Positions 8,029 through 14,955 of a DNA stretch of 64,000 nucleotides are shown one piece after another. The DNA is from Pseudanabaena sp. lw0831 (GTDB taxonomy: Bacteria > Cyanobacteriota > Cyanobacteriia > Pseudanabaenales > Pseudanabaenaceae). The stretch is from positions 1 through 64,000 of the forward strand of contig NZ_BBJB01000114.1 of NCBI RefSeq assembly GCF_016584665.1, given 5' to 3'. Under the pieces are notes generated by a model. The model was not told the origin of the DNA, did no database searches, and was given only the letters and a program-made list of their open reading frames with translations. The position numbers and the translations under genes were made by a program. The first letter of the stretch is position 1, and every line of letters starts with the position of its first letter.

Positions 8029-8059
8029 GCTTCGACATTTGATAAAGGATTTGGCGATT

Positions 8060-10876
8060 ATGCAAAATATCCTAGATCATATTCAATGCGGAATTTTTGT
8101 TTTGACGGTTGAAGCAAATACGCAAGTAGCAGATCTAATTGAAAATGATCAAGAATTTATGCTGCGATTTGCGATCGCAAATCTTGCGTTTGTACATCTT
8201 GTTTTTGGGGAACGTAGCAGCGATCAAACAGTTGATCTAGTTGGCTTACAGCCAAAAGAATGTTTACCCTTAGAATTTGCTCAGTTATTGAATAAGCATG
8301 TCAGTCAATGCTTGCAAACTCAACAACTTGTTGAGTTTGAAGAAACACTTGATTTGGCAACAAATCGGATACTATCGATTTCGCTATCCCTAAAGACTGA
8401 TAGTAACGATCATTCACAACAGATAGTTGGTACTTGCCAAGATGTCACTAACCGATCGCTATCAAAATCCCAATTTAAAGATTTTAATCAAAAAAAATTC
8501 AGTCATTTAGTTAGTGAAGTTTCTGATGCTTTTGTGGTGGTTGATCATGAAGGTGTGGTGCGTTATGTGAATCAATCAGCCGAAAACCTATTTGGGTGCA
8601 AATCCGAAGAGATTGTCGGTGAAACCTTTGGGCTTCCCGTGGTAGTGGGGGAAAGCACAGATATTGATATTCTCAATCGCCGAGGTAGTACCACCTCGGC
8701 AGAAATGCGCGTATCTGAAACAATCGACGAAGATCGTAGAGTTTATGTGGTTGCTTCATTGCGAGATATCTCAGAACGTAAGCGGGTGGAAGAGTCTCTC
8801 CAATTGCGTGAACGAGCGATCGCTGCAAGTTCTAATGGGATTGTGATTACCGATGCTACTCAGCCAAATAATCCGATGATTTATGTTAATCCTAGTTTCG
8901 AGCGGATTACAGGTTACAGTGCTGCGGAAGTGCTTGGTCGTGACTGTCGATTTTTGCAAGGCGGCGATCGCAATCAGATTGGGCTTTGGGAGTTACGCAA
9001 AGCAATTCAAGAAAAACGAGAATGTCATGCAGTGCTGCTCAACTATCGCAAAGATGGCACGCCATTTTGGAATGATTTGTACGTTGCACCAGTCTTTAAT
9101 GATCATGGCGAACTTACTAACTATATTGGTATTCAAACCGACATTACCGACCAAGTAAAATCAAATCAACGATTGCTCAAAAGTGAAGAGCGCTTGCGTA
9201 CTGTTTTGACATCGATCAAAGAAGGAATTACTTTTAGTGATGATTCTGGCTATTTTTCGATTTTCAATGCTGGAATGGAAAGTCTTACAGGGTATACGTT
9301 AGCGGAAGCCAATGCTAGTCAAGATTTTGCAAACTTTCTATATCCAGATCGATCTGAACATGACAAGGCTTTGCAAAGATTGCAACAGCTACATGAAACT
9401 GGTCAAGCGATGACTGTCGAGACCCGCCTTTGTCATCGTGATGGCACATTTAAAGATGTCTTAGTTTCTACAAGACTAATAGCATACAAAGGTAAACGGA
9501 TGTATTTAAGTAGTTATTATGACATTACCGAGCGTAAAAAAGTCGAGACCCAACTGCGTTATCAAAATGAAAGAGAACGTTTGTTAAATGCAATTTTACT
9601 TAAAATTCAATGTGAACTCAATCTCAATCAAATACTAGCAATTACTGTTAAAGAGGCTCAAGAACTATTACGTATTGATCGAGTGGTTATTTATCAGTTT
9701 CAACAAGATTGGAGTGGTACATTTGTTGTAGAAGCTGTTAATAATCCTGTGTTGTCAATTCTTGGGAAAACAATTGATGATGCATGTTTTAATCAGGATT
9801 ATGTACAAAAATATCAAGACAGAGCCATATCTAGTATCAATGATGTTGAACTTGCAGATTTAAGCCCTTGCCATAAAGATCTTTTACAATGTTTTCAAGT
9901 AAAGGCTAATATTGTAGTCGCTATTTCTTTTGGAGATACGTTATGGGGATTATTAATTGCCCATCAATGTATTGAACCGCGACAGTGGGAAGAATTTGAG
10001 ATCGATCTGCTGAAACAATTGGCTAATCATGTGGCGATCGCTATTCAACAAGTAAAATTATTTGAACGAGTTCAAGAGCTTAATAAAAATCTAGAGCGTC
10101 AAGTTGCCGATCGCACCCAGCAACTAGAGCAAAGCCTCAGCCAACTAGAAAGAGCCTTGCTCAGAGAGAAAGAACTCAACGAGCTAAAATCACAATTTAT
10201 TTCCAGAGCTTCCCATGAATTTCGTACGCCACTAGCAACAATCCAGACAGCAAGCGATCTGCTGCGAAACTATGGACATAAAATGTCAGACGAGAAAAAA
10301 CTAGAGAGAATTGATAAAATCCAACGTGAAGTTAAAGGAATGACTAATTTGTTGGAAGAAGTATTAATCATTGGCAAAACTGAATCTGGTAGATTTGATT
10401 TACAGCCAGAAAAAATTAATCTCGAAGATTTCTGTCTAGAAATTATCGAACAAACTAAGTTAATAGGCAATGGCAAGCATCAAGTTATATTCAAAAATAT
10501 TAATGCCCCTGCAAAGATATCAATAGATACTAAATTCTTTAGGCAAATTATTTCTAATTTATTATCAAATGCCATTAAATATTCTCCAAATACTAGTGAG
10601 GTTTATTTTGCGATTTCGCTAACTAGCGATCGCATCCCACAAATTTTATTAGAGTTTAAAGATCAGGGAATTGGCATTCCTTTAATTGATCAAGAAAAGA
10701 TTTTTGATCATTTTTATCGCGCTCAAAATGTTGGTATGATCGTAGGGACTGGATTGGGGATGGCAATTATCAAGAATTCAGTGGACATCCTTGGTGGCAC
10801 AATTCAACTTACTAGTGTTGAAAATAAAGGCACAACTGTAAAGGTGAAACTTCCTTACGCCCTTACCAGTGAATAA
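8060..10876 (+). CDS. Hybrid LOV / cyanobacteriochrome sensor histidine kinase
   Basis: Large cytoplasmic sensor kinase (938 aa from the ATG at 8060, preceded by AAAGGA; a TTG 21 bp upstream is possible). Numbered from that TTG: PAS-like 1-140; PAS 150-250; PAS/LOV 258-375 with GRDCRFLQG (Cys303), Asn335, Asn345 and Gln366, the flavin-contact pattern; PAS 380-500; GAF 512-675 with DACF (Cys583) and SPCH (Cys611-His612) followed by FQVKANIVV and LWGLLIAHQC, the signature of DXCF cyanobacteriochromes; coiled coil 676-715; HisKA with SHEFRTPL (His726); HATPase with N box NLLSNAIKYS, DQGIGI and GTGLGMAI. Blue-light sensing by flavin and bilin is inferred. The final codons S-E-stop lie inside a family D repeat. 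The partner is the next gene. Confidence 0.93.
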   Translation: MQNILDHIQCGIFVLTVEANTQVADLIENDQEFMLRFAIANLAFVHLVFGERSSDQTVDLVGLQPKECLPLEFAQLLNKHVSQCLQTQQLVEFEETLDLATNRILSISLSLKTDSNDHSQQIVGTCQDVTNRSLSKSQFKDFNQKKFSHLVSEVSDAFVVVDHEGVVRYVNQSAENLFGCKSEEIVGETFGLPVVVGESTDIDILNRRGSTTSAEMRVSETIDEDRRVYVVASLRDISERKRVEESLQLRERAIAASSNGIVITDATQPNNPMIYVNPSFERITGYSAAEVLGRDCRFLQGGDRNQIGLWELRKAIQEKRECHAVLLNYRKDGTPFWNDLYVAPVFNDHGELTNYIGIQTDITDQVKSNQRLLKSEERLRTVLTSIKEGITFSDDSGYFSIFNAGMESLTGYTLAEANASQDFANFLYPDRSEHDKALQRLQQLHETGQAMTVETRLCHRDGTFKDVLVSTRLIAYKGKRMYLSSYYDITERKKVETQLRYQNERERLLNAILLKIQCELNLNQILAITVKEAQELLRIDRVVIYQFQQDWSGTFVVEAVNNPVLSILGKTIDDACFNQDYVQKYQDRAISSINDVELADLSPCHKDLLQCFQVKANIVVAISFGDTLWGLLIAHQCIEPRQWEEFEIDLLKQLANHVAIAIQQVKLFERVQELNKNLERQVADRTQQLEQSLSQLERALLREKELNELKSQFISRASHEFRTPLATIQTASDLLRNYGHKMSDEKKLERIDKIQREVKGMTNLLEEVLIIGKTESGRFDLQPEKINLEDFCLEIIEQTKLIGNGKHQVIFKNINAPAKISIDTKFFRQIISNLLSNAIKYSPNTSEVYFAISLTSDRIPQILLEFKDQGIGIPLIDQEKIFDHFYRAQNVGMIVGTGLGMAIIKNSVDILGGTIQLTSVENKGTTVKVKLPYALTSE

Positions 10877-10918
10877 TTAGTGGTGCGCGGCGTAGCCGCG
10901 CACCACTAATTATTCACT
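10868..10918. repeat. Family D palindrome, copy 1
   Basis: 24-bp perfect arms (10868-10891, 10895-10918), loop GTA. The left arm supplies the last two codons and the stop codon of the kinase gene. Related copies lie at 12684 and 52854. Confidence 0.92.
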
Positions 10919-10940: not shown

Positions 10941-12674
10941 ATGACAACGATTCTAGTCATCGAAGATGTAGAAGCGCTACGCGAAGAGATCATGGAGACG
11001 CTTTCATACGAAGGGTTTGATGTACTGGGCGCTGAGAATGGAGTCGTTGGTGTCCAAATAGCTAAAACCTATTTACCGAATTTGATTATTTGCGACATAG
11101 CCATGCCAGAACTGGATGGCTTCGGAACTCTAATTGCACTACGTCAAGAACCCAAAACATCAATGATCCCGTTTATATTTTTGACGGCAATGACGGAAAA
11201 AGCGGATATGCGTCAAGCCATGCAACTAGGTGCAGATGACTATCTGACTAAGCCATTTACCTCTGCGGAATTATTGGGTGCGATCGCCTCGCGGCTGCAA
11301 AAGTACAACTCAGTTAAAGATCATTACTATGATGAGATTAAAGCTGTAGGTGAAAGATTTGAATATTTATCTCATCATGATGAGTTGACGCAATTACCAA
11401 ATCGAATCCTTTTTCATGAATCATTAACCCAAGCTGTATTACACGCCAAGATTAATAACAAATCTCTAGCTTTGTTATTTCTGGATATGGACAATTTCAA
11501 TATCATTAACAACACTCTTGGTAATGATATTGGCGATCAATTGTTTATCGCGATCGCCGAGCGACTAAAGCGCTACACAGCACCATGCGATATGGTGGCT
11601 CGCATCCAAGGTGATGAATTTGCATTGTTCATTTCTGGTATCACAGATACGCTCAGCATCAAACTTGAAACCCAGAAAATTTTAGATTTGTTAAGTCGTC
11701 CTTATCATCTATATGGGCATGAGGTTTTCATTACTAGTAGTATTGGCATCACCATTTTTCCTGAAGATCATCAAGAGGTGGAAGGATTAATCAAAAATGC
11801 TGAATTAGCAATGTATTATGCCAAAACCCATAATAGGAATAGCTATAAGCTCTATAGCCCCGATCTGAATGTCCAATCTTCAGAATATATGGCGTTAGCA
11901 AACAGCCTCCACCGCGCCATCGATCGCAATGAGATTCGGGTTTTTTATCAGCCTTTAGTCAATCTTAAATCAGGTAAAATAGTCGGGGCTGAAGCGCTTG
12001 CCAGATGGCAACATCCTGACTTAGGGCTGATTATGCCGAGCAAATTTATCCCCGTTGCTGAACAAACAGGACTAATCCTGCGTTTGAGTGAGGTAATTCT
12101 ATATTCGGTCTGTGACCAAATGCGATCGTGGCGAGAGTCTGGCATAAATTATGGATTTATTGCCGTCAATCTATCTGGTCAGCATTTTCGTCCAGACACT
12201 AATCTGATTGAATTTGTTAGAAAGATTTTACAAGAAACTAATACAGAGCCAGACCATTTAGAACTCGAACTTACTGAAGGTATCATTATGCAAAATGCCG
12301 AATATACGATTCAGGTGCTATCACAATTGCAGGAAATAGGCGTAAAAGTAGCGATCGATGATTTTGGTACAGGCTATTCGTCTTTAAGCTACCTTAAGCA
12401 TTTCCCAGTCAATATACTTAAGATCGATCGCTGTTTTATCCAAGACATTACGACCGATCGCCATGATGCGACGATCTCCCTAGCTATCATCGATCTTGCC
12501 CATAGTTTGTCATTGAAAGTTATTGCTGAAGGTGTTGAGACTGCTGAGCAGATGCAATTTTTAAAAGAGCATGGCTGCGATCAGTTTCAAGGCTATTTAT
12601 TTAGTCCCCCATTACCTGCTCAAGAATTTGAACAAATGTTGATTGATGATACTCCCTTCCCACCGAAAGAATAG
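10941..12674 (+). CDS. Response regulator with GGDEF and EAL domains
   Basis: 577-aa cytoplasmic output protein of c-di-GMP signalling. REC domain 1-120 with Asp52, Thr82 and Lys104; GGDEF domain about 145-305, whose active motif is QGDEF (223-227), so cyclase activity is doubtful; EAL domain about 320-565 with EALARW, the ELTEG glutamate, DDFGTGYSSLSYL, KIDRCF and AEGVET, all intact, which favours phosphodiesterase activity. It is 64 bp downstream of the photoreceptor kinase and separated only by a family D palindrome, so it is the likely phosphorylation target. The net effect would be light control of c-di-GMP level (inference). Confidence 0.93.
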   Translation: MTTILVIEDVEALREEIMETLSYEGFDVLGAENGVVGVQIAKTYLPNLIICDIAMPELDGFGTLIALRQEPKTSMIPFIFLTAMTEKADMRQAMQLGADDYLTKPFTSAELLGAIASRLQKYNSVKDHYYDEIKAVGERFEYLSHHDELTQLPNRILFHESLTQAVLHAKINNKSLALLFLDMDNFNIINNTLGNDIGDQLFIAIAERLKRYTAPCDMVARIQGDEFALFISGITDTLSIKLETQKILDLLSRPYHLYGHEVFITSSIGITIFPEDHQEVEGLIKNAELAMYYAKTHNRNSYKLYSPDLNVQSSEYMALANSLHRAIDRNEIRVFYQPLVNLKSGKIVGAEALARWQHPDLGLIMPSKFIPVAEQTGLILRLSEVILYSVCDQMRSWRESGINYGFIAVNLSGQHFRPDTNLIEFVRKILQETNTEPDHLELELTEGIIMQNAEYTIQVLSQLQEIGVKVAIDDFGTGYSSLSYLKHFPVNILKIDRCFIQDITTDRHDATISLAIIDLAHSLSLKVIAEGVETAEQMQFLKEHGCDQFQGYLFSPPLPAQEFEQMLIDDTPFPPKE

Positions 12675-12683
12675 ACGTTGTAA

Positions 12684-12734
12684 AGTGAAGAATTAGTGGT
12701 GCGAGGCTTCGCCTCGCACCACTAATTCTTCACT
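12684..12734. repeat. Family D palindrome, copy 2
   Basis: 24-bp perfect arms (12684-12707, 12711-12734), loop TTC. Compared with copy 1 two arm positions have changed, each with the matching change on the opposite arm. Confidence 0.92.
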
Positions 12735-12849
12735 GGGAAAGGAGTAAATGCTCATAAAAGAGAAAATAGCCCTACTCAGCCTCTTCTCTTTTCTGGGTTG
12801 CGCTAGTCATTGCTATAAAATCTTATCAAGTCCTTATAAACCATACTTC

Positions 12850-13920
12850 ATGAGTAAATCTAAACGCGCCTTAATCACAGGTATCACAGGTCAAGATGGA
12901 TCTTATCTATCGGAACTACTACTAGCAAAAGGGTATGAAGTGCATGGCATCATTCGACGCACTTCGACCATCAATACCGATCGCCTAGATCATATGTATC
13001 AAGATCCGCACCTGCCAGAGACCAAGTTATTTCTGCACTACGGCGATTTGACCGATGGCACTACTTTAGGACGTATTTTAGAAGCAGTTCGACCTCATGA
13101 AGTGTTTAATCTTGGCGCTCAGTCTCATGTGCGCGTTAGTTTTGACTCACCAGAATATACAGTTGACGCAGTGGGCATGGGAACATTGCGACTGTTAGAA
13201 GCATTGCGAGATTACCATCAACGCAACGATCGCGAAATTCGTTTCTATCAAGCAGGCTCATCGGAGATGTATGGATTGGTTCAAGCAGTACCCCAAAATG
13301 AAGATACGCCCTTTTATCCGCGAAGTCCCTATGCTTGTGCCAAAGTCTATGCCCATTGGCAAACGATTAATTACCGTGAGTCCTATGGACTATTTGCTTG
13401 TAATGGCATTTTATTTAACCATGAGTCACCGCGCCGAGGCGAAACCTTTGTCACAAGGAAAATCACCAGAGCGATCGCCCGCATTGTTGCTAATCAGCAG
13501 AAAAAACTGTACTTAGGAAATCTGGATTCCAAAAGAGACTGGGGCTATGCCAAAGACTATGTTGAGGCTATGTGGTTAATGTTGCAGCAGGAAAAGCCTG
13601 ATGATTATGTGATTTCCACAGGTGAAACCCATTCAGTAAGAGAATTTCTGGAAGCAGCTTTTGCTTACGTTAATCTCAAATGGGACGACTATGTAGAGAT
13701 CGATCCGCGTTATTTCCGTCCTGCTGAAGTTGATTTGTTATTGGGCGACTGTTCTAAGGCTAAACAAAAGCTGGGTTGGGAGCCGAAAGTTACCTTCAAG
13801 GCTTTGGTGGAGCTAATGGTGGATGCAGATTTAGAAGCATTGGGCTTACCTAATCCTAAAGGCACACATTCTCAAGATATTGCCACATTGCGAAATACTG
13901 GACAGGCTTCGACTTGGTAA
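12850..13920 (+). CDS. gmd: GDP-mannose 4,6-dehydratase
   Basis: Gmd converts GDP-D-mannose to GDP-4-keto-6-deoxymannose, the precursor of GDP-L-fucose and related sugars for surface polysaccharides. From [10 protein letters not shown] the length is 356 aa, as usual. NADP motif GITGQDGSY, the [13 protein letters not shown] block, HYGDLTDG, catalytic Tyr-x-x-x-Lys in [10 protein letters not shown], and [18 protein letters not shown] are seen. A much better ribosome site (GGAAAGGAG) precedes an in-frame ATG at 12748, which would add 34 mostly hydrophobic residues; homology favours 12850. The next gene is the natural partner. Confidence 0.93.
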
Positions 13921-13951
13921 CTTAAAAGCCATGCAAAGCATGGCTTTTAAG
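13921..13951. terminator. gmd hairpin
   Basis: 14-bp perfect arms (CTTAAAAGCCATGC and its complement), loop AAA, starting at the base after the gmd stop codon. Confidence 0.88.
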
Positions 13952-13998
13952 TTGCCAGTTTGGATTTTAGATTGCTTGGACTTTTATTGAGGAGTTTT

Positions 13999-14955
13999 AT
14001 GTTGGAAAATCGTTCAAAATTACAATTCAAAGATCAAAAGATTCTTGTGACTGGGGGGGCAGGCTTTTTAGGTAAGCAAGTAATTGCGCAACTAATCGCC
14101 GCAGGAGCTAGCCCAGATTTAATCACCGTCCCTAGATCAAAAGAGCATGATTTGCGATCGCTTGATATCTGTGAAAAAGTTGTACAGGGGCAGGATTTGA
14201 TTATCCATCTTGCCGCTCATGTTGGTGGTATTGGACTTAATCGCGAAAAACCAGCCGAACTTTTTTATGACAACCTGATGATGGGTGTGCAATTAATTCA
14301 TGCCGCCTATCAGGCAAATGTTCAAAAATTTGTCTGTGTTGGCACAATTTGTGCGTATCCTAACTTTACGCCTGTACCATTTAAAGAAACCGATCTGTGG
14401 AATGGTTATCCTGAGGTTACTAATGCTCCCTATGGTGTTGCTAAAAAAGCTTTACTAGTGCAGCTACAGTCTTATCGTCAGCAATATGGTTTTAATGGCA
14501 TTTACCTACTGCCTGTTAATCTCTATGGGCCAGAAGATAACTTCGATCCTCGTAGCTCCCATGTAATTCCTGCGCTAATCCGTAAAGTTTATGAAGCTCA
14601 GCAAAGCGGCGATCGCACTATTTCTGTATGGGGAGATGGTACTCCGACCAGAGAGTTTTTATATTCCGAAGATGCTGCGAGGGGAATAGTTATGGCATCC
14701 GAGGCTTATAACGAGTCTGAGCCAATAAATATTGGTACTGGCTTGGAAATTTCCATCAAAGATTTGATCCATTTAATTTGTGAATTAATGGGATATGATG
14801 GCGAAATTGTCTGGGAAACTGACAAGCCTAATGGGCAGCCGCGCCGTTGCCTTGATGTAGAAAGGGCTAAGCAAGCCTTTGGTTTCACAGCACAGGTGGA
14901 TTTTCGCGAAGGTTTAAATAAGACGATCGCTTGGTATCGTCAACAAGCGAAATAA
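13999..14955 (+). CDS. GDP-L-fucose synthase-type epimerase/reductase
   Basis: SDR-family enzyme of 318 aa that epimerises and reduces the Gmd product to GDP-L-fucose (fcl/wcaG family). It shows the NADP motif [27 protein letters not shown], catalytic [18 protein letters not shown] and the C-terminal NGQPRR region. The ATG at 13999 follows TTGAGGAG. It lies directly behind gmd, which supports the assignment. A related cyanobacterial SDR with another nucleotide-sugar substrate cannot be excluded. Confidence 0.88.

Follow-up and report, generated by a model that had tools for sequence, protein, structure and literature searches.

A Pseudanabaena histidine kinase with predicted LOV and DXCF cyanobacteriochrome domains in one chain

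The window, i.e., the whole stretch of 64,000 nucleotides from Pseudanabaena sp. lw0831 that we analyzed, encodes a sensor histidine kinase in which a LOV domain and a cyanobacteriochrome-type GAF domain, carrying the cysteines of both the DXCF and the CH motifs, lie in series in front of a single kinase module. We consider it probable that this serial LOV and bilin-GAF kinase distinguishes blue light from blue plus green light, and that it controls a c-di-GMP phosphodiesterase. A previous sequence-only reading of this DNA had proposed two chemically different blue-region sensors in one chain, and on the evidence of sequence and predicted fold that proposal is supported.

The gene was found where the sequence-only reading had placed it, encoding 938 amino acids from an ATG at 8060 to a stop codon that ends at 10876; the frame could also start from a TTG at 8039. 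The domain order is PAS-LOV-PAS-GAF-HisKA-HATPase (Table 1), and the protein has both features of a two-component histidine kinase, i.e., the phospho-acceptor H719 in HisKA and a HATPase_c domain. None of the ten Pfam families detected at an E value of 0.001 was PHY, so that there is no phytochrome PAS-GAF-PHY module, and the kinase looks cytosolic. The families PAS and PAS_9 each matched three stretches, and the PAS domains at around residues 150-240 and 400-490 are additional to those described previously. Among the best 80 of 590 relatives of the window, the seven closest, of which six are Pseudanabaena records and the seventh carries the label Phormidium tenue, covered nearly the whole query, with 71-90% identity in the best segment.

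Table 1. Features of the kinase gene and the gene that follows it, with loci from other cyanobacteria that combine a LOV domain and a bilin-type GAF domain
Feature	Position in window, or locus	Strand	Basis
Sensor histidine kinase (PAS-LOV-PAS-bilin GAF-HisKA-HATPase)	8060..10876	+	Full-length match in 26/26 genus genomes
PAS preceding LOV, about residues 150-240 (estimated limits)	8507..8779	+	Pfam PAS_4 153-191, Diguanyl_cycl_sensor 150-189
LOV domain, residues 249-368	8804..9163	+	Sequence matches, AlphaFold model, fold match
LOV adduct Cys, C296 in GRDCRFLQ	8945..8947	+	Cys in 26/26 orthologs
Stretch with flavin-contact N328, N338, Q359	9041..9136	+	N, N, Q in 26/26
PAS between LOV and GAF, about residues 400-490 (estimated limits)	9257..9529	+	Pfam PAS_3 403-482
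Cyanobacteriochrome-type GAF, residues 504-670	9569..10069	+	Sequence, model, fold match; Pfam GAF 521-662
DACF with second Cys, C576	9779..9790	+	Cys in 24/26 orthologs
Canonical bilin-attachment site, C604-H605	9869..9874	+	Cys in 23/26 orthologs
HisKA, residues 710-777, phospho-acceptor H719 (HEFRTP)	10187..10390	+	Pfam; HEFRTP in 26/26
HATPase_c, residues 823-933	10526..10858	+	Pfam
Response regulator REC (D52)-GGDEF (reads QGDEF)-EAL, likely partner	10941..12674	+	Pfam; next gene to kinase
Pair loci (14)	L184, L186 (without second Cys), L187, L199, L205, L223, L224, L230, L232, L233, L236, L237, L243, L249
Named pair cases (among the best 80 of 590 relatives)	Trichocoleus FACHB-40 (L016), UBA8803 (L017), MS008 (L083, probably the same record as L184), Coleofasciculus LEGE 07092 (L018), Coleofasciculus MAG (L019, second Cys lost)

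The LOV domain had been recognized from the motif GRDCRFLQG and from Asn, Asn and Gln at flavin-contact positions, all of which are present, although the limits originally drawn for the LOV and GAF domains (residues 258-375 and 512-675) differ from those used here. The best sequence match of residues ~249-368 was PDB 7r5n (phmmer E = 1.7e-41), and MrLOV (PDB 9vf7) matched with an E value of 4.7e-37. The best of five AlphaFold models (pLDDT 88.2; the other four 67.8-71.0) superimposed on MrLOV with a TM score of 0.96 and an rmsd of 0.8, so that the nearest solved relatives are LOV domains by both sequence and fold. The suggestion that DCRFLQ is tolerated in LOV proteins was borne out by the occurrence of the same motif in the solved structures 7r5n and 7a6p (PF5-LOV, PpSB2-LOV). 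We considered the possibility that an Asp immediately before the LOV cysteine marks a dead LOV domain, but ruled it out: 20 of the 26 orthologs have Asp at this position and the other 6 have Asn, and Asp is also found in solved LOV domains. A quick tree of 45 rows placed the window PAS within the Cys-bearing LOV domains, but its support was weak and most forks were open; in the same tree the PAS outgroup had very long branches and did not fall on one side of a branch. On sequence and predicted fold, nothing places this PAS domain outside the LOV domains.

For the lifetime of a putative flavin adduct, a guide is PpSB1-LOV, in which four arginines (54, 61, 66 and 70) surround the FMN phosphate and dark recovery, which takes 2471 min, is shortened to 23 min by the R66I mutation (excerpts of PMC5314338 and PMC6047819). 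In alignments read by eye, the counterparts of positions 54, 61 and 70 in the window kinase are R297, R304 and R313, and that of position 66 is Leu309. Across the 26 genus members, position 66 is Ile in 13, Leu in 12 and Thr in 1; position 61 is Arg in 25 and Cys in 1; position 54 is Arg in 19, Lys in 5 and Gly in 2; and position 70 is Arg in 15 and His in 11. Because the phosphate-contact Arg at position 66 is replaced by Leu, and the other positions vary within the genus, our guess by analogy is that the adduct would last for minutes rather than days.

The GAF domain contains DACF and SPCH, as had been claimed, as well as the sequences FQVKANIVV and LWGLLIAHQC exactly as quoted. Its best solved match was the bilin GAF domain of PDB 6oap (phmmer E = 8.1e-38), and it also matched TePixJ (PDB 3vv4; E = 1.8e-30). 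The matches of the GAF domain to 6oap and of the LOV domain to 7r5n lie far outside the range of chance. In the alignment to TePixJ, DACF is paired with DPCF, and SPCH with TECH; the aligned stretch of 6oap reads DQYF, without the second cysteine. An AlphaFold model (pLDDT 88.3) gave TM scores of 0.91 to 6oap and 0.80 to TePixJ, so that the match to cyanobacteriochromes extends to sequence, fold and both cysteines. The Trp of WXDXXL, the motif of extended red/green cyanobacteriochromes (excerpts of PMC11284453), which would lie two residues before the Asp, was absent from all 26 orthologs, 20 of which have Ile there and the other 6 Val. A tree of 64 rows grouped the window GAF firmly only with its Pseudanabaena orthologs and with one GAF from a genome of the same family, G452 (support 98/91); TePixJ and the backbone were unresolved, leaving the window GAF without a firm place among characterized DXCF domains. 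This tree was built from GAF domains that scored above 125 bits, had few gaps and kept the canonical Cys (62 candidates, of which 60 were kept, plus four references) and left out most genus orthologs, duplicate loci and two near-copies.

The sequence-only reading had assigned the GAF domain to the blue/green type from its DXCF and CH motifs. The part of that assignment that stands is a predicted blue-absorbing dark state, whereas the color of the photoproduct is not fixed by the motif: those of two DXCF examples, TePixJ and NpF4973, lie at 530 and 600 nm, respectively (table in the review PMC4469895, seen in excerpt). This latitude, together with the expectation that both dark states absorb blue light, is consistent with another arrangement in which both domains photoconvert, with the kinase summing their inputs as an additive blue-dose or dynamic-range sensor rather than comparing blue with green. 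We regard this as possible, if on balance unlikely, because DXCF domains in general typically convert from a blue-absorbing (Pb) to a green-absorbing (Pg) product that is reversible by light (excerpts of PMC11284453).

The kinase is conserved throughout the genus, with full-length matches in all 26 genomes searched (query 1-422, E ≤ 1.8e-219) and no internal stops. In the alignment of these orthologs, the LOV cysteine, both Asn residues, the Gln and HEFRTP are invariant. Both GAF cysteines occur together in 23 of the 26, and the canonical cysteine in these is followed by His in 22 and by Tyr in one; the X position of DXCF is variable (A, S, P or E). Other variants of the GAF motifs are YPCF (G406), ESCF (G387), DECL (G398) and CY (G401). 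Two genomes, G386 and G393 (L149/L151), have lost both bilin cysteines (DSNF, NPSY), perhaps in one event, although their LOV residues, kinase histidine and partner gene are intact; judged from these residues, they represent a natural loss of bilin input. A third, G405 (82% complete), has Tyr in place of the canonical cysteine. Mean pairwise identity among the orthologs was 54% in the N-terminal 140 residues, 78% in the first PAS region, 89% in the LOV domain, 86% in the second PAS region, 80% in the GAF domain, 93% in the linker and HisKA, and 80% in the HATPase domain. On this alignment, the LOV domain is the most strongly conserved of the sensors, whereas loss of the bilin site is tolerated. 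Three orthologs lack the canonical cysteine, so that not every species depends on the GAF domain for bilin sensing.

This pattern raises the alternative that light is sensed by the LOV domain only, with the GAF domain being a structural spacer that is losing its ability to bind bilin. The invariance of the LOV cysteine compared with the canonical GAF cysteine, the higher identity of the LOV domain, the loss of both GAF cysteines in G386 and G393, and the lack of a detectable bilin reductase gene in this assembly (see below) are all consistent with it. We nevertheless consider it improbable, because the great majority of orthologs retain both cysteines even while the X residue between them and the Asp varies, with His almost always following the canonical one, and because LOV domains are coupled to intact DXCF GAF domains in other families as well.

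The opposite alternative is that the GAF domain is the light sensor and the LOV domain mainly a redox or flavin sensor, or a dimerization element. The same genome does encode LOV-like PAS domains that lack the cysteine (GQTPRILQ, GQNPRILQ), and according to one review doubt has been cast on whether some LOV proteins require the cysteine (excerpts of PMC8846402). However, the retention of the cysteine and all three flavin-contact residues in every ortholog makes this very hard to sustain. Of 11 matches to the LOV query in the genome, at least two carry a LOV-type cysteine, i.e., that in the window and that in an ORF of 1042 amino acids on contig C115.

There were 73 GAF matches in the whole genome. 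A profile applied to 40 genome stretches, which cover part of these 73, and to the window gave 31 GAF domains above 60 bits. The canonical column holds Cys in 25 of these, and the next residue is His or Tyr in 17 and Leu in 8; the second cysteine is present in 12 of the 25. In GAF domains such as those at L271:390-4043, L268:1140-3473 and L276:645-2465, EEVF or EEIF and CL replace DXCF and CH, so that the Cys is kept and the His lost; from their sequences these may form a group of GAF domains that is unusual or does not use bilin.

As to the supply of bilin, the genome contains two heme oxygenases and 16 matches to the phycobiliprotein family, eight of them above 150 bits. No ferredoxin-dependent bilin reductase was found in this draft assembly of 118 contigs, either in general or beside a cobI-like gene, the arrangement seen at L306; the family is present in 25 of the 26 genus genomes. 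As a phycobiliprotein-bearing cell should make bilins, we suspect that the missing reductase reflects a gap in the assembly.

We also looked beyond the genus for chains that combine the two sensors. A phylum-wide search covered 386 genomes, with up to four first-look candidates scored in most, and in a class-wide search at least 176 of 388 genomes had a LOV match at an E value of 1e-35. From these we took 80 loci, i.e., 79 from outside the genus among the higher-ranking matches listed in the class-wide search, after removal of several near-copies, plus one from G195 in the phylum-wide search. The LOV domain exceeded 120 bits in all 80 and retained its cysteine in 75. Fourteen of the 80, a rank-biased proportion and not a frequency, combined in one ORF a Cys-bearing LOV domain and a GAF domain above 120 bits in which His or Tyr comes after the canonical Cys; the second cysteine was also present in 13 of these. 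Some ORFs end at contig ends (e.g., L185), so that pairs may have been missed. The 14 loci span seven family codes (f1, f7, f9, f16, f25, f27 and f44), and in two of them, L224 (G072; 868 amino acids) and L249 (G127; 876 amino acids), the order is reversed, the DXCF GAF domain preceding the Cys-bearing LOV domain. On an unconstrained GAF tree, the LOV-linked label requires five changes against the other named groups, or six when all rows not from the PDB are counted. An approximately unbiased (AU) test did not reject a single clade of LOV-linked GAF domains (p = 0.056 with 21 rows; p = 0.068 with 19 rows). Because a single clade is thus retained, the results only suggest that the pairing arose more than once, mainly through the reversed order at L224 and L249.

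The gene immediately downstream of the kinase, which the sequence-only reading did not mention, encodes a response regulator with REC, GGDEF and EAL domains (Table 1). By tblastn, the beginning of its homolog lies no more than about 400 bases beyond the kinase, on the downstream side, in all 25 other genus genomes, as it does in the window, and this gene order makes it the likely partner. The REC aspartate motif, QGDEF, EALAR, ELTE, DDFG, KID and AEGVET were kept in all of 14 copies, i.e., that in the window and one from each of 13 loci (L009-L015 and L148-L153), although the ORFs at those loci were selected for DEFA, EAL and DDFG, so that the motifs were partly a condition of selection. From these motifs, we predict that the protein is a c-di-GMP phosphodiesterase under the control of phosphorylation; with QGDEF in place of GGDEF, synthetic activity appears doubtful.

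Near-perfect palindromes of 49 bp lie on both sides of the response-regulator gene, at 10869-10917 and 12685-12733. The first overlaps the stop codon of the kinase, and a fold of -43.3 kcal/mol (z = -12.2) is predicted for its RNA. Fourteen sites in the genome carry the core pattern, with matching changes in the stem, and an exact search for the core in 318 loci gave matches in four stretches only, all from this genome. After the response regulator, on the same strand at 12748-14955, are homologs of gmd and fcl, which also occur in six of the seven named relatives. Their naming as nucleotide-sugar genes is by sequence similarity, and a link to surface polysaccharide is possible.

From the domains, residues, predicted folds, conservation and gene order described above, we infer chromophore binding, colors, partner specificity and output as follows. 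Blue light would drive formation of an adduct between Cys296 and flavin in the LOV domain, which would reverse thermally. Blue light would also convert the GAF domain from a blue-absorbing dark state, with a bond between Cys576 and the bilin, to a product absorbing at longer wavelength, most likely green, and green light would then revert the GAF domain but not the LOV domain. The LOV signal would pass through the PAS domain and coiled-coil linkers to the GAF domain, which, because it adjoins the HisKA helices, could gate that signal. The LOV domain would thus act as the constant input and the GAF domain as a modulator, enabling the kinase to tell blue alone from blue plus green, and its output would be passed to the adjacent REC-GGDEF-EAL protein. 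With two types of sensor and an adjacent gene for a signaling enzyme, the cell may be able to compare blue with longer-wavelength light. A broader proposal, which we put forward tentatively, is that chains combining LOV and DXCF domains form a recurrent, undescribed class of cyanobacterial two-chromophore receptors, assembled more than once, in which the LOV domain, not being reversible by light, would record the blue dose while the green-reversible GAF domain would veto or license it; in Pseudanabaena a c-di-GMP phosphodiesterase would in this way come under a blue AND-NOT-green gate.

If the proposed mechanism is correct, two unrelated photochemistries that both absorb in the blue, one based on a flavin adduct that reverses thermally and the other on a two-Cys bilin that light can switch back, precede a single kinase that is conserved throughout the genus. 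Having two photochemistries in front of one kinase means that signal integration by serial sensors could be tested with light colors alone, and the three orthologs whose bilin sites are damaged provide natural comparisons. Light may further be an input to c-di-GMP in Pseudanabaena, and a two-color optogenetic kinase is possible.

Several known systems share parts of this design. In the LOV histidine kinases, i.e., LOV-HK (PDB 6ph2/6ph3) and the engineered SB2F1 (PDB 8a3u), the LOV domain also precedes the kinase and the folds match that of the window domain; unlike the window kinase, their chains presumably carry no bilin GAF domain. The phytochrome-LOV chimaeras, i.e., neochrome and bacterial PHY-LOV proteins, do place bilin and flavin sensors in one chain, but their bilin module is a red/far-red phytochrome and not a blue-region cyanobacteriochrome. 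The protein of PDB 6oap, which provides the best solved match to the GAF domain, we take to be PPHK, and its second input to be a receiver rather than a LOV domain; a BeF3-bound entry is listed among the fold matches. As a dual sensor histidine kinase (PDB title), it resembles the window protein in having two sensor inputs to one kinase. TePixJ has the same DXCF second cysteine and canonical CH cysteine as the window GAF, but lacks a LOV domain and is named a methyl-accepting chemotaxis protein. SesA, another DXCF cyanobacteriochrome, links blue light to c-di-GMP, but without a LOV domain and through its own GGDEF domain, whereas the window kinase has a separate REC-GGDEF-EAL protein (excerpts of PMC9090330). 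SL2 of Synechococcus elongatus, a LOV-GGDEF-EAL protein, links a LOV domain to c-di-GMP hydrolysis (excerpts of PMC8846402); it is a single chain and, unlike the window system, has neither a kinase nor a bilin domain. Bacteria that have LOV receptors often have bilin-GAF receptors as well (excerpts of the review PMC4844311). Among the best-ranked matches in the open-licence literature, i.e., outside subscription journals, we found no LOV-cyanobacteriochrome kinase, including in the available portions of PMC6798134, PMC9090330, PMC5812497, PMC8846402, PMC11284453, PMC4844311, PMC9953108, PMC7690835, PMC6047819, PMC5314338, PMC4469895 and PMC9614035. Each module of the window kinase is well known, as are kinases with two sensors; what appears to be new, on the literature covered, is the presence of a LOV domain and a DXCF cyanobacteriochrome in one kinase.
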